42,269 nt of DNA. Origin: Candidatus Bathyarchaeota archaeon (GTDB taxonomy: Archaea > Thermoproteota > Bathyarchaeia > Bathyarchaeales > Bathycorpusculaceae). The notes under the pieces are model-generated. The model was not told the DNA's origin. It made no database searches and saw nothing but the letters and a program-made list of their open reading frames with translations. Both the position numbers and the translations under genes were made by a program. Positions 19,259 to 28,028 of this stretch are shown here, one piece after another (the stretch's first letter is position 1; the number at the start of each line of letters is the position of its first letter). The stretch spans positions 1 through 42,269 of the forward strand of contig JACAEI010000043.1 of NCBI GenBank assembly GCA_013388905.1, written 5' to 3'.

Positions 19259-20000
19259 CTAAAGAATGTCTATTTGGAAGCCTTTCACCACGTACTCACG
19301 CTTCTGATAAGTCTGGGGTCATATCTTCTGCCCGCCTTTCTGATTTCCAAAAAGTTCTTGTTACCTGCCTTAGACAAATCTATAACTACTTGCGTCAAAT
19401 GCTCAATCATTGCACAGAACTCTTTTGGGTGTGCATTTTTAGCCATTGTCCAATAAGCCAAGGTCTTGTACGCATATAATGCTGGGCAAGCATGCCCAAA
19501 GAAAGTTTTAACGACGTCTCTTCCCCAATTGTGCTCCATTAAAGAGAGGCTACTAAAAATAAGTCTTGTACTGAGTGTTACGAATTCTCTTTCAATTCTT
19601 CCGAAAAAGTGGTGAAATCTATCTGATCTTTGGAGCTAGGTACCTTCCTAATCTAGGATGGAGCCTTATCGTAGAAGTCGCTGAAAATAAGTTCCCCTTG
19701 TCCAGCCGCCTCTGAAAAGCAGTCAAGCACAAGCAATTTCTTTTCCCATCCGTCTGGTAACGTTTTGACTAGGAGAGTAAGTTGTATTATCAGCGCTTGT
19801 AGAGGATAGATGAAGTCCAAGTAGATGACTTGATTTCCTTCTATTATGCCTTATCTTATAAAGGCGTAGAGAAATTCTCTGGCAAAAGTTCCAGATTCAA
19901 TTTCCCACAAGATGTTTTCACCTTGAAGTAAACCACCGCCTAGAAGCCGGTCGAGACTTTTTATTTCTGTGGAATAGAAAACTTGTTGCTCGTTTTGCAA
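19259..20000 (-). pseudogene. Decayed KaiC/RecA-like ATPase family gene
   Basis: Reading from TTG 20000 gives QVFYSTEIKSLDRLLGGGLLQGENIL, the entry motif of RecA/KaiC-like archaeal proteins, followed by QVIYLDF and EKKLLVLDCFSEAAGQGELIFSDFYDKAPS. The frame contains TAA (19851-19853) and TAG (19653-19655). Near 19610-19632 it shifts, continuing as DRFHHFFGRIEREFVTLSTRL through MEHNWGRDVVKTFFGHACPALYAYKTL. Near 19310 it shifts again to YQKREYVVKGFQIDIL and a TAG stop at 19259-19261. Two stops plus two frameshifts mean a dead gene. The P-loop is not recognisable. Just upstream the same frame reads QFKSEYGITPFNFVAETSISE before a TAA, possibly more of the same gene or the end of another. Confidence 0.8.
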
Positions 20001-20075
20001 ATATTACTCACTGATGCTTGTCTCTGCAACAAAGTTAAAAGGCGTTATGCCGTATTCGGACTTAAACTGAATGGT

Positions 20076-20091
20076 TGTACATATATGTACA
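20076..20091. promoter_or_regulatory. Perfect 16-bp palindrome, candidate operator
   Basis: TGTACATATATGTACA is identical to its reverse complement. It sits between the decayed KaiC-like gene (minus strand) and the broken plus-strand gene starting at about 20153, in promoter position for both, as expected for a dimeric helix-turn-helix regulator site. No second copy was noticed in the window. Confidence 0.5.
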
Positions 20092-20152
20092 TGATGAACA
20101 TAACGTTTCTATAGTTGAACATTGGTCTAATGTATCTCTGGAGCGTGAAATG

Positions 20153-20547
20153 AGAATGTTAAATTCAGTTGAACTTTCAGTACGAGAATTAGGGATGCTA
20201 AAATTAACGGCTGATTTCTTTGCCGAAAACCCTGGATCAGTTGTTCTTTCGGAAGCAATAATGCAGACACTTATCGATGAAATGTCATGTACAAACTGGC
20301 AAAAACTCAACAGAAAACATGGGAATATGTGATTTCGCGTGTTAGCCACGGTAAAAAAGGCAAAATCAAAATCATAAAATCCTTACTTTTGGATGAACAC
20401 CCGTGTGAATACGCCATATTTCTCAATGGTTTTCTTGAAAAGACGAAAAATGATAGCGTTAAGGTATTTCAAACAGTCATCACTAGAATTATATTAATAA
20501 AAATTCGTTATAGCTTAAGTAAGGAGAAGACTGGCTATGAGTTTTGA
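20153..20547 (+). pseudogene. Probable frameshifted gene of unknown family
   Basis: From ATG 20153 (or 20159) the frame reads LNSVELSVRELGMLKLTADF, then LSEAIMQTLIDEMS, but stops soon after. In another frame from 20287 the text continues YKLAKTQQKTWEYVISRVS, then GKIKIIKSLLLDEHPCEYAIF and LNGFLEKTKNDSVKVFQTVI. The junction GAAATGTCATGTAC looks like a 5-base near-duplication (ATGTC ATGT); deleting five bases joins the two parts as DEM-YKLAK, giving a protein of about 125 aa. I do not recognise it. The last bases overlap the rfcS start, so the original end may have been earlier. Together with the neighbour, this marks a decaying segment. Confidence 0.45.
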
Positions 20548-21514
20548 AATGTGGGCTGAAAAATACCGACCAAAAACGTTAGATGACATGGTGAATCAAA
20601 AAGAGATAGTTGAACGACTGAAGAGTTTTGTCAAGTCGAGAAACGTGCCGCACTGCATCTTTGCTGGACCACCAGGAACAGGAAAAACTACGGCCGCACT
20701 TTGTTTGGCAAGAGATCTTTATGGTGAACCATATAGAGAGCACATTATGGAATTAAATGCAAGCGACGAAAGAGGCATTGATGTTGTTCGGGAGACTGTG
20801 AAAACTTTTGCCAGAGTGCGATCTATCGGTGAAATCCCATTTAAAATAATGATTCTAGACGAAGCAGACAACATGACATCAGACGCGCAGCAAGCATTGA
20901 GGCGCACAATGGAACGCTACACTGAAACATGCAGATTCATTTTATGTGCAAATTACAGTGGAAAAATAATAGAGCCAATTCAATCTAGATGTGCACCATT
21001 CCGTTTCAGTTTTCTACCTAGAGAAGAACACGACAAATATTTGAAACATATATCGGAAAACGAAAACGTCAAGCTTCTGAAAGAGGGGTTAGACGCGGTT
21101 TTTGAGGTTTGTGGTGGGGACCTAAGAAAAGCAATAAATACTTTACAAGCTGCAGCTTCATTGAATAAACCTATAGACGCCAAAGTTGTTTACTCAATCA
21201 CTGGAAAAGCCAGCCCTGCTGATGTGCAGAAAATGCTAGAAATAGCCATGAAAGGCAACTTTATGGAAGCCAGAAAACAACTCCGCGAAATGATACAAAA
21301 ATATGGGGTAGCTGGAAGCGACATAATCCGCCAAATTCACACAGAAATCTTTAGAGCAGACATCCCTGAACAATGGAAGATAAAATTAGCCAACATAGTT
21401 GGCGAAATAGATTACAGGCTTGTTGAAGGAGCAGACGAAGAAGTTCAATTAAGTGCATTATTGGCTAGACTTGTTGAAGCCGCCAACGAATTAGAAAAGA
21501 GCAACAAGGTGTAA
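20537..21514 (+). CDS. rfcS: Replication factor C small subunit
   Basis: 325-aa AAA+ clamp-loader subunit that loads PCNA on primed DNA. Seen: RFC box WAEKYRPKTLDDMVNQ, Walker A GPPGTGKT (44-51), ASDERGIDVVR, Walker B ILDEAD (106-111), sensor ILCANY and the SRC motif (150-152) with the arginine finger. A C-terminal collar domain follows. Length matches archaeal RfcS, and no intein is present. GGAG lies 11 bases before the ATG. Four bases separate it from rfcL, a typical archaeal pair. Confidence 0.97.
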   Translation: MSFEMWAEKYRPKTLDDMVNQKEIVERLKSFVKSRNVPHCIFAGPPGTGKTTAALCLARDLYGEPYREHIMELNASDERGIDVVRETVKTFARVRSIGEIPFKIMILDEADNMTSDAQQALRRTMERYTETCRFILCANYSGKIIEPIQSRCAPFRFSFLPREEHDKYLKHISENENVKLLKEGLDAVFEVCGGDLRKAINTLQAAASLNKPIDAKVVYSITGKASPADVQKMLEIAMKGNFMEARKQLREMIQKYGVAGSDIIRQIHTEIFRADIPEQWKIKLANIVGEIDYRLVEGADEEVQLSALLARLVEAANELEKSNKV

Positions 21515-21518
21515 ACTG

Positions 21519-22778
21519 TTGTATTTCGCTTGGACTGTTAAGCATAAACCTAAGTCTTTGTCGGAAATTGTCGGTAATAAAGAAGCGATTCAAAAGTTTG
21601 TTGATTGGGTTAAATCCTGGGAAAGGGCTGTTCCTAAAAAAAGAGTTGCTTTTCTTTACGGGCCGCCTGGCATTGGAAAAACGGTTACCGTGGAAGCTTT
21701 AGCTAACGATTTAAAGATGGAACTTATAGAGAAAAATGCCAGCGACTATCGAACTGAGGACGCCATAAACCGTTTCGCTGGACTAGCCTCGCAATACAAC
21801 TCGTTGTTTGGTGGAAAAAAGATTGTCTTGCTCGACGAGCTGGATGGGTTGACTGGAACATCTGACAAAGGTGGAGTAAAAGCAATAACTGACATCGCGA
21901 AAACAGCCCAATGCCCAATAGTTTTAATTGCCAACAACGCATATGACCCACGCTTCTCAAATCTTCGCAATTACAGCCTATTAATCGAGTTTAAGAAACC
22001 ACCTACTGGAGAAGTAATGAAACATTTGAAGAGCATATGTGCAAATGAAGGCATTCAAGCCGATGAAGATGCGCTTAAATTCATTGCTCAGCGTTCTGAG
22101 GGCGATGTTCGTTCTGCAGTTAACGATCTACAAGCTTTGTCTCAAGGTAAGAAAAAGCTAACATACGAAGACGTTTCTTGGCTCGGTTACCGGGATAGAC
22201 AAGATACAATTTTCAGTGTGTTAAGAATGATAATCTATGGAAGAACATGCATCAGTGCAAAACAAGCCGTGGACATGGCTGATGTGGACATTGACATGCT
22301 TTTCGAATGGATATACGAGAACGTGCCTGAACATTTGACTGACCCGCATGACTTGGCAGAGGCAATGGATGCGCTTTCTATGGCAGACGTTTATCGCGGT
22401 AGAATTCGCGCAACACAAGATTGGAGTTTGACACGGTATGTAATTGATTTTATGACTGCTGGCGTGGCAATGGCCAGGAGAAACACTAAGACTCACGGCT
22501 GGATACCGTTCAAGTTTCCGGCGCGAATACAAATGTTGTCAAGATCAAAAGCTGAACGTGCAATGCAATTGAACATAGGTTATAAGATTAAGCGCAAATG
22601 CCACATCTCTGCCTACAGAGCCTCGAAAGAAACTCTCCCCTATCTAAAGATAATCTTTAAGAATAACGTATCTATGGCGGCTGGAATTGCAAAATGGCTT
22701 GATTTGGACCCTGAAATGATTGAATATATAACTGGAAATAAGGAAAAAACAGAAGCGATAATCAAACAGTTAAGTTAA
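21519..22778 (+). CDS. rfcL: Replication factor C large subunit
   Basis: 419-aa large clamp-loader subunit. Begins FAWTVKHKPKSLSEIVGN; Walker A GPPGIGKT (48-55); NASDYRTEDAINRFAG; Walker B LLDELDG; sensor LIANNAYDPR and the RSEGDVRSAVNDLQAL segment. The C-terminal collar is helical. The TTG start is supported by AAGGTG 7 bases upstream inside the end of rfcS. No PCNA-interacting motif (Q-x2-L-x2-F-F) is visible at the C-terminus, which ends KTEAIIKQLS, whereas many archaeal large subunits have one. Confidence 0.96.
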   Translation: MYFAWTVKHKPKSLSEIVGNKEAIQKFVDWVKSWERAVPKKRVAFLYGPPGIGKTVTVEALANDLKMELIEKNASDYRTEDAINRFAGLASQYNSLFGGKKIVLLDELDGLTGTSDKGGVKAITDIAKTAQCPIVLIANNAYDPRFSNLRNYSLLIEFKKPPTGEVMKHLKSICANEGIQADEDALKFIAQRSEGDVRSAVNDLQALSQGKKKLTYEDVSWLGYRDRQDTIFSVLRMIIYGRTCISAKQAVDMADVDIDMLFEWIYENVPEHLTDPHDLAEAMDALSMADVYRGRIRATQDWSLTRYVIDFMTAGVAMARRNTKTHGWIPFKFPARIQMLSRSKAERAMQLNIGYKIKRKCHISAYRASKETLPYLKIIFKNNVSMAAGIAKWLDLDPEMIEYITGNKEKTEAIIKQLS

Positions 22779-22795
22779 TAGTCAAGTATACAATG

Positions 22796-23122
22796 CTAGT
22801 GTATTTTGCTTCCTTCGGCAATGTCCTTTTCTGGCTGTAAGCAAACAACGTTTCCATTGTCATCTTCTGCAGCCAAAATCATACATTGCGATTCGACACC
22901 CATCAACTTTCTTCTCTGTAGATTCAGCACAAACGCGTATTTTCTACCTACGAGGGTTTCTGGCTTATACCATTGCAAAAGCCCAGCAACTGCTTGTCTC
23001 TTCTCCGTTCCAAAATCAACTATCATTCTAATTAGGTTTCGTGAACCCGGAATTTGGTTTGCTTCTGTAACTTTTCCAATTCGCATGTCCAATTTTTGAA
23101 ATTCTCCAAATAGTATCTCCAT
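22796..23122 (-). CDS. tRNA-binding OB-fold protein (MetRS-beta/CsaA-like)
   Basis: 108-aa free-standing tRNA_bind (EMAP/Arc1p-like) OB fold: FGEFQKLDMRIGKVTEANQIPGSRNLIRMIVDFG, then RQAVAGLLQWYKPETLVGRKYAFVLNL and RRKLMGVESQCMILAAED. This is the domain at the C-terminus of many methionyl-tRNA synthetases; alone it acts as a tRNA-binding subunit in trans or as a CsaA-like chaperone. ATG with GGTGA 9 bases upstream. Last gene of a minus-strand run starting with translin. Whether it partners MetRS cannot be told here. Confidence 0.88.
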   Translation of the reverse strand: MEILFGEFQKLDMRIGKVTEANQIPGSRNLIRMIVDFGTEKRQAVAGLLQWYKPETLVGRKYAFVLNLQRRKLMGVESQCMILAAEDDNGNVVCLQPEKDIAEGSKIH

Positions 23123-23164
23123 TTTTCATAATCACCTTTTTTTATTTTCCAAAGGTTAATGCAA

Positions 23165-23872
23165 TTAAGCTTTATGTGTTTTTCTTTTGCGCCGTATTTT
23201 TTCAACTGCTTTTGCGACGCCTTCCCAACCTTCGACAGACTTCGAACTAATTATTTCGAGCGCTTCCTTCGAAGTTAATCCAAACAACTCTTCGCCAACA
23301 GCTCTTCTTGCAAGATAACGTGCGGCATTAAGAATTTCCGCGTTTAAACGTGAATCTATTAAATCCGCTAAATGGCAAATTAATGCTTCAACAGTGCGTG
23401 GTCTAATTGGACCATATTCTCCGTGATGTGCAGACACTACATGAATTATTTCTAATGGAAAGTCTCTTCGAACAAGCTCTGAAATTATAATAGATAAGTG
23501 ATCCATGTAATCTGCAAGTCTTGTTTTGCCCAAACTCCCATTTTCATATTTAACATATGTGAGGGGCTTGAAAATGTCATGCAACAAAACGCCAGCCATA
23601 ACAAGGTCACGATTCACCTTCCCCCCATAAATTTTCTCCATAGAGTTACACAATGCTAATGCGATGTCGGCTGATGAAGCAACATGCTCCAAGTAACCGC
23701 CCTGATAGCTGTGATGATGAGATAATCCTGCAGGCGAAATTTCAAGCGGCAAACCAGTATACTTTTTTCCACCTATTTCAAATGTTGGATTTTCTAGTAA
23801 TTCAATAATCTTTTCTCGAAGTTTCTTATCGCGAATCTTATTTGCTAAAGCCTTAAGCTTTGGATGAAGCAA
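23165..23872 (-). CDS. HD-domain metal-dependent phosphohydrolase
   Basis: 235-aa HD-superfamily protein. The metal ligands are visible as HHHSYQGGYLEHVASSADIA, GVLLHDIFKP (the HD pair), HLSIIISELV, SAHHGEYGP and ALICHLADLIDSR (last Asp). The arrangement, including HxxY-G-LxxH before the HD, resembles the catalytic region of YhaM-type 3'-5' exoribonucleases without their N-terminal OB fold, so a nuclease or nucleotide phosphohydrolase is plausible. The TTG start is the only good in-frame choice near the family N-terminus. It lies 39 bases after endonuclease V, in the same operon-like run. Confidence 0.85.
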   Translation of the reverse strand: MLHPKLKALANKIRDKKLREKIIELLENPTFEIGGKKYTGLPLEISPAGLSHHHSYQGGYLEHVASSADIALALCNSMEKIYGGKVNRDLVMAGVLLHDIFKPLTYVKYENGSLGKTRLADYMDHLSIIISELVRRDFPLEIIHVVSAHHGEYGPIRPRTVEALICHLADLIDSRLNAEILNAARYLARRAVGEELFGLTSKEALEIISSKSVEGWEGVAKAVEKIRRKRKTHKA

Positions 23873-23911
23873 TTGAATCGTACTCTTTTCTATTGTTAGG
23901 TTGTTTAGGCA

Positions 23912-24577
23912 TTATTTGATTTTTCGCTTTGCAAGTGTTGCTATCTCGTGGGCTTTTCGAATGGGTTCTGGAACTCGATCATGACGTAGGCAGTGGTTAA
24001 CAATTTTTATAGCTGTTTCTAGAGAAACCATGTGTCCAACACTAACATAAATAGGCTTGCATCCGCATTTAGTCGTAACTATTGCGCCGACAACTTCACC
24101 TTTATGTTCCAGAAAAGCAACATTATCCTCGGTAAATTCTCTAGCTTCTCCGACCAATCTGCTTTTTGCCACCCCCACTGTTGGCTTTCCAATTACCAAC
24201 CCTAGATGGCTGGCAAATCCACAACGGTAAGGATGCGCTAAACCTTGCCCATCAACAAGAAAAACGTCTGGTTGCATCGTCAATCTTTGGATGCTCATAA
24301 GTGCTGGTGGTAATTCTCTGAAGGAAAGCAAGGTCGGAATATATGGCAAGCGAGTTTTGCAGCAAGCGGTTTTTGATTCTACAAGTTTAAGAGAATCGTA
24401 ATCCAAAACTACTACGGCACCTATTGACATTTCTTTTACATAAGCAACATCAACGCCTGCAACAAGCTTGACCTTTCCAGGCATTTTATCCTCCTGAATA
24501 ATCTGTTTGGATAATTGCAGCTGCATTTTATGCGCTTTTTCTACAGAAAAACGCGACGTAATTTTTGATGTGTTCAT
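23912..24577 (-). CDS. nfi: Endonuclease V
   Basis: 221-aa deoxyinosine/inosine-specific endonuclease, cleaving one phosphodiester 3' to the deaminated base in DNA or RNA. Catalytic residues: D43 (AGVDVAYV), E88 in YIPTLLSFRELP, D109 (FLVDGQGLAHPYRCG) and the conserved Lys of VGVAKSRLVG. The Tyr of YIP is the strand-wedge residue. Full length. ATG starts 3 bases after the translin stop, so the genes are very likely co-transcribed. Confidence 0.94.
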   Translation of the reverse strand: MNTSKITSRFSVEKAHKMQLQLSKQIIQEDKMPGKVKLVAGVDVAYVKEMSIGAVVVLDYDSLKLVESKTACCKTRLPYIPTLLSFRELPPALMSIQRLTMQPDVFLVDGQGLAHPYRCGFASHLGLVIGKPTVGVAKSRLVGEAREFTEDNVAFLEHKGEVVGAIVTTKCGCKPIYVSVGHMVSLETAIKIVNHCLRHDRVPEPIRKAHEIATLAKRKIK

Positions 24578-24580
24578 ATT

Positions 24581-25231
24581 CTACTCAGGTTTTGAGGTTC
24601 CTTTTCTTGCTAATTTCTCAAAATTCTTCAAATATTTCTCTAAAGTGTTTCGCCGAATTTCTTGTGTCACATCTCCACGTGTAGCCTCGATAATTTTTCT
24701 TGCTGTGTCACACTTTCTTCTTAGTCCTGAAATGAGCATGTAAGCCTCGTCCATAGCCATAAGTTCGATGTAGATTCCATCCATCGTCTTTAGGCAGTTC
24801 TCACTTTTTTCAACGTCACCCTCACGTAAAGCATCTAAAGCCATGCGCCTATATTCTCCTATCACATCGGCTAATCCAAGCACATAATCAACCGTAGGCA
24901 CATTGATTTCCTTTGGTGTTATGAATCTCGACTCTTTAACTAGCTTAAGAAGTATGTTTGCTTCAGAGTATTCTTGTAGGGCAGCATTGAACAAGCCGCT
25001 GTAAATAATGTTCGGGTGTTCTTCTGATGCGTTGTTAAGCTTTGCAATAATCTTTGCGGCTTTTGCAACAAGTTTTTCTGCTTCTTTTAACTTTTTTTGA
25101 TGAATCATTAATATTGCTTGTTTGGAAAGGCTCGTCGCTTTTCGCATGTCTTTTTGGGCGTTTTCTCGCAATTTTTCTTTTTCTTTTAGTGCTTCTTTTA
25201 TCTCTTCTAGAATATTTTTTAAAGAAGGCAT
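24581..25231 (-). CDS. Translin family protein
   Basis: 216-aa all-helical translin/TRAX-like protein, an archaeal relative of the octameric single-stranded RNA/DNA-binding nuclease complex. Seen: a charged N-terminal helix, LFNAALQEYSEANILLKLV, VDYVLGLADVIGEYRRMALDALREGD, then YIELMAMDEAYMLISGLRRKCDTARKIIEATRGDVTQEIRR, characteristic of the family. The acidic pair in EYSEA and EYRRMALDAL sits where TRAX nuclease residues lie; activity is not certain. I prefer ATG 25231 with GGGTG upstream over GTG 25240. First gene of a run with endonuclease V. Confidence 0.9.
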   Translation of the reverse strand: MPSLKNILEEIKEALKEKEKLRENAQKDMRKATSLSKQAILMIHQKKLKEAEKLVAKAAKIIAKLNNASEEHPNIIYSGLFNAALQEYSEANILLKLVKESRFITPKEINVPTVDYVLGLADVIGEYRRMALDALREGDVEKSENCLKTMDGIYIELMAMDEAYMLISGLRRKCDTARKIIEATRGDVTQEIRRNTLEKYLKNFEKLARKGTSKPE

Positions 25232-25324
25232 GAATTGCACCCTTTTAGTTTAAGATAGAAGCTACAAGTATTTTATTGTATCACTAAAAGATGAGGAATT
25301 GCAACGGTCAGCTGTTTGCCTTTT

Positions 25325-25516
25325 CTATTCTGTTGGAGGTTCTTTCCATTTTTCTACAAGAAGCTTGCTATCTCCGAGCTTGAAGCTTACTTTTACGAAT
25401 ATGGAGTCTGCGCCTTTAAAAGGAAACATGCTGTCTTCAGCGAAGTCTTTCGGTAGGTAAATTAGAAATTTGCCGTCTTTTCTTCTGAATAAGCGTCCTC
25501 TTCCTTCGTTAACCAT
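25325..25516 (-). CDS. Conserved-looking 63-aa protein, unknown function
   Basis: Small basic protein with alternating hydrophobic residues: RGRLFRRKDGKFLIYLPKDFAEDS, then MFPFKGADSIFVKVSFKLGDSKLLVEKW. The RLFRRKDGKFLIYLPK-D pattern suggests a small beta-barrel or swapped-hairpin fold; AbrB-like is one possibility, unproven. ATG with GGAG about 10 bases upstream and a TATA-like stretch in the 140-bp upstream gap. Same strand as translin, 85-100 bases before it. I do not recognise a named family. Confidence 0.65.
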   Translation of the reverse strand: MVNEGRGRLFRRKDGKFLIYLPKDFAEDSMFPFKGADSIFVKVSFKLGDSKLLVEKWKEPPTE

Positions 25517-25657
25517 GTTATTTACGCTCCGTTTAAATCAACGAGTTAAATTATAGGCAAACAATAAATAAGAATTATTTAAGTATTATTATCATCTCAT
25601 TCAGTAAAAAGTAATCTGAAACGGAAGCAAAAGCAGAATTTGAATCATTTACAAATA

Positions 25658-26641
25658 TTATACGCTGCCAAATCTTATGGGGTTCTTAAGTCTGCTTAAC
25701 AACACAACGCGACTTTCCTGCGACTCATCAATTATATTGTAACCTATCTCAATCGCTATTTGCTCTGCAAATTCACGAATTTCTTGATGGCTCGGCATGG
25801 ATTTAAAGCCTAGGCGAAGTCTAGAAAATCCTACATGCATGTAGGATTTTGTTTCAACATATGCTGGATTAGCTTTTCTAATAAGCTTAGCATATTCATC
25901 CACATCTTTCATGTTTAAATTGCGTACAGATGTTATGCGAATCACACAGGGGCATTTGAAACTGGGCAGGAACTCTAAGGTTTCTCTTAGTCTTTCCCAA
26001 GCATTCGGAATTTGAGGACGGCATAAATCTTTAAACGTTTTTTTGTTTGGGGCACAGACAGAAATGTATAACTGTGTTGGTTCTTCACTCAACCTAGCCA
26101 GCGCTGAGGGTATAGTTCCGTTGGATACAAGGAAAGTCGTAAATCCTTTCTTGTGGAAAGTCTGAATTAACTCTCCTATTTGACTGTAAAGCGTTGGCTC
26201 TCCAGTCAAGCTTATCGCTGCATGCTTAGGAGTCAAGGCTTCTTTGAATTTCTGCCGGTTTGCTTTTGGATTGCCTTTATATCCGCTTAAAATTTTTAGC
26301 TGTGCCTTAATGCTTCCTTCAACGATTTCTTCTGGAGAATCCCACCTAGGCAGTTTTAGCTCATCCCATGCAATTTGGAGGTCGCCGCTTTGGGCTTTCC
26401 AACAGAAGAGGCATTGCTGCGTGCAATAGAAAAGTGTAGGTGTCATTTGTAGGCACTGATGCGTTTTAATGCCATAAAATTTCTGTTTATAACATGGTCT
26501 ACCATGAATTAAAGTTTCATACAGCCATCTACATCTTTTAACTGCTGAATGGCGCCCAACAAAATGGTATTTTTGCTTGTCAAGAGCTTGTATAAGCGAT
26601 GAAGGAACAATCTCTTGCAAATATTCACTTTCCTCCCACAT
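25658..26641 (-). CDS. taw1: tRNA 4-demethylwyosine synthase (TYW1/Taw1)
   Basis: 327-aa radical SAM enzyme that condenses pyruvate with N1-methylguanosine-37 of tRNA-Phe to form the tricyclic wyosine base. The radical SAM cluster is CTQQCLFC (C73, C77, C80). The second [4Fe-4S] cluster ligands C37, C50 and C63 are present with the exact 13/13 spacing known for archaeal TYW1. SLTGEPTLYSQI is the SAM-binding motif, and SKSYMHVGFSRLRL-type text lies near the C-terminus. It lacks the flavodoxin domain of eukaryotic TYW1, as expected. A Trm5-like gene for the preceding m1G step is 5 kb away. Confidence 0.94.
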   Translation of the reverse strand: MWEESEYLQEIVPSSLIQALDKQKYHFVGRHSAVKRCRWLYETLIHGRPCYKQKFYGIKTHQCLQMTPTLFYCTQQCLFCWKAQSGDLQIAWDELKLPRWDSPEEIVEGSIKAQLKILSGYKGNPKANRQKFKEALTPKHAAISLTGEPTLYSQIGELIQTFHKKGFTTFLVSNGTIPSALARLSEEPTQLYISVCAPNKKTFKDLCRPQIPNAWERLRETLEFLPSFKCPCVIRITSVRNLNMKDVDEYAKLIRKANPAYVETKSYMHVGFSRLRLGFKSMPSHQEIREFAEQIAIEIGYNIIDESQESRVVLLSRLKNPIRFGSV

Positions 26642-26687
26642 GCAATCTTCACAAAAATAAAAACAAGATAGTTAATAAACTCAATCA

Positions 26688-27866
26688 TTAGGCGAAACAA
26701 TATTCCACTTCTTGAAACGTAGAGCAGAGTTTGGCGATGTCTCTTCGAATTTCTTCTGGTTCTTCCTCGTCAATAATTGCTCTCTTAATTAACTCTGCAA
26801 TTTTCAACATTTCCCCTTCTTTCATTCCATGCCTAGTTACCTCACATGTTCCAATCCTAACAGCGCAATCAACAATAATATTGGAATTCTGAAGTTTTTC
26901 GGCAAATGCTCTGCCTTTCTTGTAATTTCCATAATCTAATATTATCTGATGCGACTGTGTGAATCCTAAGTGTTGGCAAACGACTGGAAAACCATAGTCA
27001 CATAAAGCCTTAGCTAAAGTTTTCGAGTTGCGAACAACTTGCCCAGCGTATGCCTTGCCAAATTTCCTCATTTCTGCTAAAGCCAAAGTCAGCGCCGCTA
27101 TTCGATTCCAGTGGGCGTTATCTACAAAAGTTGGATAGATCTTCTCTTTTATGATTTCTCCATGTTCCCTATCAGCCAGAACCATGCCACCTTGCGGACC
27201 AAAGAAACTTTTGTGGGTTGAGCCAAACAGGGCACATACTCCTTCTCTTAAAGGATCTTGAAACTGTTTTCCGCCAATAAGTCCAAGAACATGTGAACCA
27301 TCATACCCTACGATTGCGCCATTTTCCTTAGCAATTTTTGATAATTCTTTAACTGGATATGGAAAGGTGATGAAGCTTGCACCAAAAATCATAATCTTGG
27401 GCTTAAGTTGTTTTATGACCTTTTTGGATTCTTCCACCTTTATGTTCATGTTATGCTTCGAAAAGGGAAATGGTACTGTTTTAAGCTGCAAAAGTTTTGC
27501 TAATCCCTCGTTCCACATTCCGGGGTATCCGCCAACATTTGGAGATATACACATGAGTATATCTTTTGGTTTTGTAAAAGTGGCTAAGATAATCATGTCG
27601 GCGATATGTCCCGAAAGAGGCCGCAAATCGGCGGTGTCAGCCCCGAAAACTTCTTTTGCCAATTTTTCGCCGCACTGTTCAATCTCGTCTGTGAATTGCG
27701 CACCCATGTAGAAACGGTCTCTTGCAGTGTAACGTTGCCCGAAATCTGAGGAAAGAAGTTTTCTAACAGCTAAACTCATAACGTTTTCAGAGGGAATAAG
27801 ATTCAAGCATTGTTTACCACGCCACTCTTCCTGCTTTTCAACAATACTAAGAATTTCGTCAATCAT
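26688..27866 (-). CDS. glyA: Serine hydroxymethyltransferase (divergent)
   Basis: 392-aa PLP enzyme of the SHMT family, interconverting serine and glycine with a folate or pterin C1 carrier. Seen: CLNLIPSENVMSLAVRKLLSSDFGQRYT (substrate-binding Ser/Glu), LRPLSGHIADMI, YDGSHVLGLIGG, and the PLP-lysine motif GSTHKSFFGPQGG with K219. Bacterial enzymes read TTTTHKTLRGPRGG, so the active-site loop is clearly variant (FFGPQ). Also short (392 versus about 415-430). Broad family is certain; the carrier is unknown. No operon partner is clear; 47 bases separate it from taw1. Confidence 0.85.
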   Translation of the reverse strand: MIDEILSIVEKQEEWRGKQCLNLIPSENVMSLAVRKLLSSDFGQRYTARDRFYMGAQFTDEIEQCGEKLAKEVFGADTADLRPLSGHIADMIILATFTKPKDILMCISPNVGGYPGMWNEGLAKLLQLKTVPFPFSKHNMNIKVEESKKVIKQLKPKIMIFGASFITFPYPVKELSKIAKENGAIVGYDGSHVLGLIGGKQFQDPLREGVCALFGSTHKSFFGPQGGMVLADREHGEIIKEKIYPTFVDNAHWNRIAALTLALAEMRKFGKAYAGQVVRNSKTLAKALCDYGFPVVCQHLGFTQSHQIILDYGNYKKGRAFAEKLQNSNIIVDCAVRIGTCEVTRHGMKEGEMLKIAELIKRAIIDEEEPEEIRRDIAKLCSTFQEVEYCFA

Positions 27867-28028
27867 GCGTATCCCTTAAGCGAGAGCAATATTTGACCCC
27901 TCTTACATTTAAACTATTCATGCTGCAAAGTGTACAACATTCAAAATGGAGACTTCTCTCACGCAATCATCTTTTCATCTTTCAGCCACTAACGAGCCGT
28001 ATTAGCGTTCTACACTTCGCTGGCAATG

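Follow-up and report, generated by a model that had tools for sequence, protein, structure and literature searches.

The question raised by the locus described here is whether a run of adjacent nuclease and tRNA-related genes in a member of the Bathyarchaeia encodes proteins that work together. To our knowledge, neither endonuclease V (EndoV) nor TRAX has a settled physiological role in archaea. The window, by which we mean the whole stretch of 42,269 nucleotides that was analyzed, is one contig of a 1.5-Mb assembly. Its minus strand holds four ORFs, which encode a TRAX-type translin (24581..25231, ATG start at 25231, with a GTG start at 25240 also possible), an EndoV (23912..24577), an HD-domain protein with a YhaM-like catalytic fold (23165..23872, TTG start), and a stand-alone MetRS C-terminal (beta) OB domain (22796..23122). 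A check of the ORFs returned gaps of 3, 39, and 42 bases; the order and spacing given by the initial annotation are exact, the end that it placed at 25231 is the ATG start, and its four gene identities are borne out by Pfam matches above cut-off to Translin, Endonuclease_5, HD, and tRNA_bind. Further upstream on the same strand are orf63, which encodes a conserved 63-aa small protein (25325..25516), TYW1/Taw1, the wyosine radical SAM enzyme for tRNA-Phe (25658..26641), and a serine hydroxymethyltransferase-like (SHMT) gene (26688..27866). Downstream of the OB gene, two RFC genes are convergent to the run. In comparison with a same-genus relative (L131), dN/dS values for the seven genes SHMT to OB range from 0.01 to 0.15, indicative of purifying selection. 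This Candidatus Bathyarchaeota relative also provides the best TRAX match (88% identity), and the closest relatives are Candidatus Bathyarchaeota. An Rfam search of positions 20000-28000 returned no match.

The TRAX protein matches Pfam Translin (PF01997) with 43.9 bits against a cut-off of 25.9, and its closest solved structure is Archaeoglobus fulgidus AfTrax (3zc1, E 1.7e-23). Among 23 diverse homologues, the acidic residues E90 and E93 (QEYSEA) are invariant and D125 (GLADVIGE) is nearly so. All three align with acidic residues of AfTrax, which places the protein with the TRAX-type members of the family and not with inactive translin. We take these residues to be catalytic, partly as an assumption and partly from the Asp of 3zc1 that is Ala in 3zc0. 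It should be noted that the archaeal translin/TRAX models of NCBIfam (NF011156-NF011161, PRK14562) bear the title 'haloacid dehalogenase superfamily protein', a name under which TRAX genes are likely to go unnoticed in annotated genomes.

EndoV scores 228.6 bits with PF04493 (Endonuclease_5; cut-off 23.4) and 238.1 bits with NF008629 (cut-off 230), has solved relatives in 4xpu and 2w35, and keeps the active-site residues D43, E88, D109, K138, and H182 together with the PYIP wedge. The roles of these five residues are presumed here, as is the equivalence of D109 with D110 in T. maritima numbering. Across 75 full-length archaeal EndoVs, the metal-binding Asp (D109 of the window protein, 24251-24253) is Asn in 19, Glu in 1, and Gly in 1, and D43 and E89 are retained in 75 of 75 aligned proteins. 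The Asp-replaced EndoVs come from loci within L032-L122 and belong to families f3, f8, f12, f16, f17, f19, f20, f26, f28, f29, f33, f41, and f48, with one from f1; judged from their sequences, they may be altered or inactive, yet they are conserved. Broken or partial EndoV remnants adjoin TRAX at L053, L076/L178, L160, and L192 as well as at G150:C26, G165:C136, and G167:C30, and some of these breaks may be contig ends and not decay.

Gene neighborhoods were surveyed in a union of 325 genomes (G000-G324) made up of relatives, class, and phylum samples. TRAX and EndoV are present in 55 and 49 of the 60 relatives, in 153 and 117 of the 161 class genomes, and in 145 and 136 of the 181 phylum genomes, respectively; Sulfolobus acidocaldarius also matches both. 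Both genes could be placed in 206 genomes, and in 127 of these EndoV follows TRAX in the same orientation at a distance of no more than 3 kb (gap <400 bp in 99 and 400-3000 bp in 28). In the remainder, the two genes are adjacent and convergent (7), separated by 4-5 kb (3), far apart (38), or on different contigs (31). The both-placed total is at least 206, as TRAX positions are missing for G085, G089, and G100; two of these genomes have EndoV and therefore stand wrongly among 8 scored as 'EndoV only', and the TRAX-only genomes of family f25 were also left out. The broken EndoVs of G028, G030, G150, G165, G167, and G099 were scored as EndoV in this linkage count, and all but G028, which is not part of the class sample, were scored as absent in the order and class co-occurrence counts given below. 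At the named loci, the TRAX-EndoV junction has a median gap of 3 bp and is ≤30 bp in 47 of 53 cases, the EndoV-HD junction is ≤30 bp in 21 of 34, and tight junctions often overlap. The linkage exceeds chance and forms a compact unit that has been stable over evolution. The neighborhood survey proposed in the initial annotation thus found the arrangement not to be unique to this contig, given 127 linked genomes and 7 more with adjacent convergent genes. The linkage is dispensable, since 69 of the 206 genomes have the two genes at distant sites or on separate contigs.

We infer that the run is carried on a single transcript. Counts of consensus BRE/TATA elements show a clear excess over shuffled sequence upstream of orf63 (0.49 versus 0.09). 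Weak excesses, in what is a weak test, precede TRAX (0.19/0.12), EndoV (0.25/0.07), HD (0.17/0.09), and OB (0.31/0.15), so these genes may have separate promoters. The initial annotation had named such promoters as an argument against a common unit; no clear one lies between TRAX, EndoV, and HD.

The genes upstream differ in how closely they accompany the run. TYW1 (TIGR03972, 424.1 bits; cut-off 317.95) lies ≤1.3 kb upstream of TRAX on the same strand at 67 of 76 named loci. In the order it does so at 38 of the 50 loci that have room for it, as compared with 15 of 38 loci outside the order. The small protein encoded by orf63 has no Pfam family and a poor structure model (pLDDT 59.7). It is found between TYW1 and TRAX in many relatives, with a mean column identity of 65% across the alignment, 97% identity to the same-genus relative, and a dN/dS of 0.01. 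The SHMT-like gene (PF00464, 133.9 bits; NF000586, 308 bits, under the cut-off of 335) is the next gene upstream in part of the family. At one locus (L086, genome G004), TYW1-orf63-EndoV-HD-OB is kept and TRAX is gone, and no TRAX was found in that genome. The downstream RFC pair has turned from convergent to the operon strand at L049, L155, L156, L162, L164-L168, and others in the family; in the neighborhood tables, many RFC large-subunit genes are labeled RFCS, since the small-subunit model outscored the other.

The origin of the run is suggested by a cluster already in the literature. TRAX-SepRS-EndoV, at times with TYW1, has been reported for Euryarchaeota, TACK, and Asgard archaea (Mukai et al. 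2017, PMC5424206; Front Genet 2022, PMC8762117, section 3.1.2). The initial annotation had not seen its module described; the core linkage is, however, in print. In relatives of the window, SepRS lies in the gap between TRAX and EndoV (624 bits; cut-off 380.65). The gap content was inspected for part of the 28 genomes with 0.4-3 kb spacing, and most of these wider gaps hold SepRS; the exceptions are L095 and L096 (family f17), which are without it, and G150, where the gap contains a decayed EndoV only. SepRS occupies the same position in order mates (L041, L045, L051, L189, and L204) and in families f11, f12, f26, f41, f43, and f49. Since the TYW1-TRAX-SepRS-EndoV layout recurs in separate families, it is probably old, and the same antiquity was proposed by Mukai and colleagues from SepRS trees (PMC5424206, PMC8762117).

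SepRS exceeds its cut-off in 15 of the 161 class genomes. Weaker matches, most of them at 50-90 bits, were disregarded, as the model also scores below cut-off in control bacteria. The window genome has no SepRS over the cut-off (best 54.8 bits versus 380.65), and none lies between the window's TRAX and EndoV. The window run nevertheless preserves the TYW1-TRAX-[SepRS]-EndoV order of the published cluster. Most of the window's order has lost SepRS, and the TRAX and EndoV genes have moved together; the two are still adjacent after SepRS loss in most of the sampled order genomes. From gene content and order, the window run looks like a SepRS-less derivative of the published archaeal cluster. The main text of PMC8762117, as distinct from its supplementary files and figures, mentions no HD domain, phosphohydrolase, exonuclease, or MetRS. 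Our literature search returned no description of a SepRS-less, HD-bearing form, and it found translin together with Bathyarchaeota only in PMC5424206 and PMC8762117. This form, and the nested pattern of gene loss described below, seem to be new within the literature searched.

The last gene of the run has a different history. The OB protein matches tRNA_bind with 93.7 bits (cut-off 27) and TIGR00399 with 120.3 bits (cut-off 116.65). The genome's own MetRS, located on another contig (C28), covers positions 5-545 of the MetRS profile and the OB ORF covers 535-676. As the MetRS ends where OB begins, OB is the detached C-terminal part of a split MetRS, and the MetRS of this genome lacks the domain. 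MetRS beta joined the run only in the window's family, among the families examined, and at 17 of 65 named loci it remains although EndoV and HD are gone. OB is probably a bystander that is merely co-located with the run. The initial annotation had proposed the OB fold as part of a possible RNA surveillance or decay module; we dropped this assignment, and with it the idea of all four genes as a single module.

The HD gene was recruited within the order, as indicated by its position in genomes that carry both genes: it lies beside EndoV in 53 of 58 order genomes, against 0 of 14 in the rest of the class. We rejected an ancient membership of HD in the cluster, since genomes outside the order carry the gene at another site; among the clusters shared by its neighbors there, no tRNA or nuclease gene was recognized. 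Downstream layouts were scored at the 65 of 80 named loci where TRAX is followed by ≥2.5 kb of sequence, and the same loci were used for the loss tree. The layouts comprise EndoV-HD-OB (21), OB alone (17), EndoV-OB (14), EndoV-HD (8), SepRS-EndoV-HD (2), and one each of EndoV, SepRS, and none, where a broken EndoV can still score as EndoV. The named loci overlap the surveyed genomes (e.g., L131, G001), so the two sets are not independent. HD next to TRAX without EndoV was found at 0 of the 65 loci. On a tree built from TRAX and TYW1 only, a Dollo count, which assumes presence at the root, gives 10 losses of EndoV (at one of them, L201, a broken EndoV lies on the other strand beside SepRS) and 6 losses of HD. 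All 10 EndoV losses fall within HD-less clades, which make up 46% of the tree length; by our own arithmetic, the chance of this nesting is 0.46^10, or ∼4e-4. At the level of whole genomes, HD occurs without intact EndoV in 2 of 60 order genomes, namely G033, where TRAX runs to the contig end, and G122, which is also without TRAX. TRAX is found without intact EndoV in 29 of 114 genomes of the order, and beyond the order EndoV was not detected in 6 of 20 genomes with HD. The same nesting would arise if a common ecological factor, for instance cooler habitats, lay behind the losses, and the pattern thus supports, and does not prove, an EndoV-HD dependence.

These counts bear on a reading in which the locus reflects operon inertia, that is, a translation housekeeping cluster (SHMT, TYW1, TRAX, SepRS, EndoV, MetRS beta) whose members are co-expressed and whose nucleases share no pathway. 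MetRS beta and SHMT do come and go independently of EndoV or HD, and the unlinked 69 of 206 genomes are what such a reading would predict. However, TRAX-EndoV adjacency outlasts the loss of SepRS, the pair is also found adjacent in the opposite orientation (7 genomes), and the losses of EndoV are nested in those of HD. We regard inertia as a somewhat unlikely explanation.

What the HD protein does is central to any shared function. It matches PF01966 with 46.6 bits (cut-off 22) and YhaM (9h3f) with an E value of 4.6e-10 in phmmer. Its AF2 model (pLDDT 91.8) superimposes on YhaM with a Z score of 19.0 and an rmsd of 3.5 over 182 residues, and the next chain reaches a Z score of 10.7. H54, H63, H98, D99, H125, H150, and D170 are invariant among 20 homologues, and the fold and metal ligands of YhaM are thus both present. 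The protein (235 aa) aligns to YhaM residues 111-314 only, however, and is missing the N-terminal OB domain; with the NCBIfam YhaM equivalog it scores 47.5 bits against a cut-off of 460. Orthology to YhaM was rejected on these two grounds. The resemblance to YhaM noted in the initial annotation thus extends to the fold and ligands and stops short of the OB domain and the equivalog score. A replacement of the missing domain in trans by the MetRS beta protein was also rejected, as families f2-f9 have HD and no OB in the locus. Going by the model, the HD protein is a likely nuclease and looks like the catalytic half of a 3'-5' exonuclease. A small-molecule hydrolase, acting on a nucleotide or cyclic dinucleotide to remove or sense an EndoV/TRAX cleavage product, would instead be no nuclease at all. 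A YhaM deprived of its N-terminal part reportedly shows no RNase activity (PMC11347170), HD proteins are described as having diverse chemistries (PMC8177086), and PgpH, YfbR, and OxsA are among the weaker fold matches. Still, YhaM stands far above the other folds and matches most of the chain, and all of the metal ligands are kept, so we consider a hydrolase of this kind doubtful.

Our preferred reading, to which we assign a probability of roughly 40%, is that the run descends from the published cluster with loss of SepRS, that HD was added in the ancestor of the window's order, and that TRAX, EndoV, and HD act as a nick-and-trim unit on deaminated (inosine-containing) nucleic acid. EndoV would nick one base 3' of inosine, so that the upstream fragment would carry the inosine at its 3' end. 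This end would then be degraded by the YhaM-like HD enzyme, and TRAX, as an oligomeric endoribonuclease, would cut the leftover RNA fragments, such that the three proteins would share a substrate and act in this order. The OB gene has no part in the scheme. An exonuclease acting after the EndoV nick would need EndoV and not the reverse, which matches the observed pattern. The substrate is most likely RNA and perhaps tRNA, with TRAX and the tRNA neighbors (TYW1 and, in relatives, SepRS) making RNA more likely than DNA. Eukaryotic TRAX-translin is reported to process tRNA precursors (PMC9246224). The RNA, perhaps tRNA, decay module of the initial annotation is supported in part, in this reduced form: a stable packed unit is surrounded by tRNA genes (TYW1, SepRS of relatives, MetRS beta), and OB is left out of it.

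The main counter-evidence to nick-and-trim is that the HD protein lacks the N-terminal part whose removal reportedly abolishes the RNase activity of YhaM (PMC11347170). The six HD genomes outside the order without EndoV, the unlinked third of genomes (69/206), and the repeated loss of EndoV while TRAX stays also stand against it.

Prokaryotic EndoV is best known for its action on DNA. In a DNA version of the scheme, EndoV would start alternative excision repair of deoxyinosine, HD would be the 3'-5' exonuclease that removes the lesion, TRAX/translin would bind single strands, and the tRNA neighbors would be incidental. The E. coli enzyme is described as a DNA repair enzyme, and that of Pyrococcus is reported to cleave inosine in ssRNA and deoxyinosine in DNA, including dsDNA (PMC4693234); the EndoV-HD dependency suits DNA as well as RNA. 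Against this, the characterized TRAX proteins are RNases and TRAX is the partner most constantly present, TYW1 and SepRS are tRNA genes, and EndoV is frequently lost where TRAX is kept (the 29 of 114 order genomes above). On balance, we think that repair of DNA is unlikely to be the function.

The nick-and-trim reading can be taken further, to a dedicated RNA inosine-excision pathway in Bathyarchaeia, although we would call this extension quite improbable. EndoV would nick deaminated tRNA or other RNA, HD would trim, and homomeric TRAX would destroy the fragments, clearing damaged tRNAs at high temperature; the pathway would have its roots in a SepRS/TYW1 tRNA operon and would have persisted there after SepRS was lost. 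Archaeal tRNA contains a 1-methylinosine, m1I57, which could be a physiological target or a look-alike and for which the deaminase is described as unidentified (PMC7912444).

The published TRAX-EndoV link was drawn by way of SepRS; in the present run the pair has survived the loss of SepRS and has been joined by a third likely nuclease. Since the presence of HD predicts EndoV, the locus offers a concrete, testable set of partners for EndoV and archaeal TRAX. Each component can be compared with a known system. The window's TRAX matches the A. fulgidus TRAX of AfC3PO (3zc1) over its full length and has retained the Glu pair as well as the Asp that is replaced in 3zc0. With YhaM/Cbf1 3'-5' exoribonuclease, the HD protein has in common the HD catalytic fold and the metal ligands, whereas the N-terminal OB domain belongs to YhaM and is absent from the window protein. 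OB is a full match to Trbp111/MetRS beta subunit and completes the genome's split MetRS; in the window its gene ends the operon, a placement seen only in the window's family among the families examined. Finally, the run shares with the TRAX-SepRS-EndoV(-TYW1) cluster, as far as it is set out in the published sections, a layout on one strand with TRAX first, EndoV last, and TYW1 often upstream, and differs from it in having no SepRS and in carrying an HD gene after EndoV.
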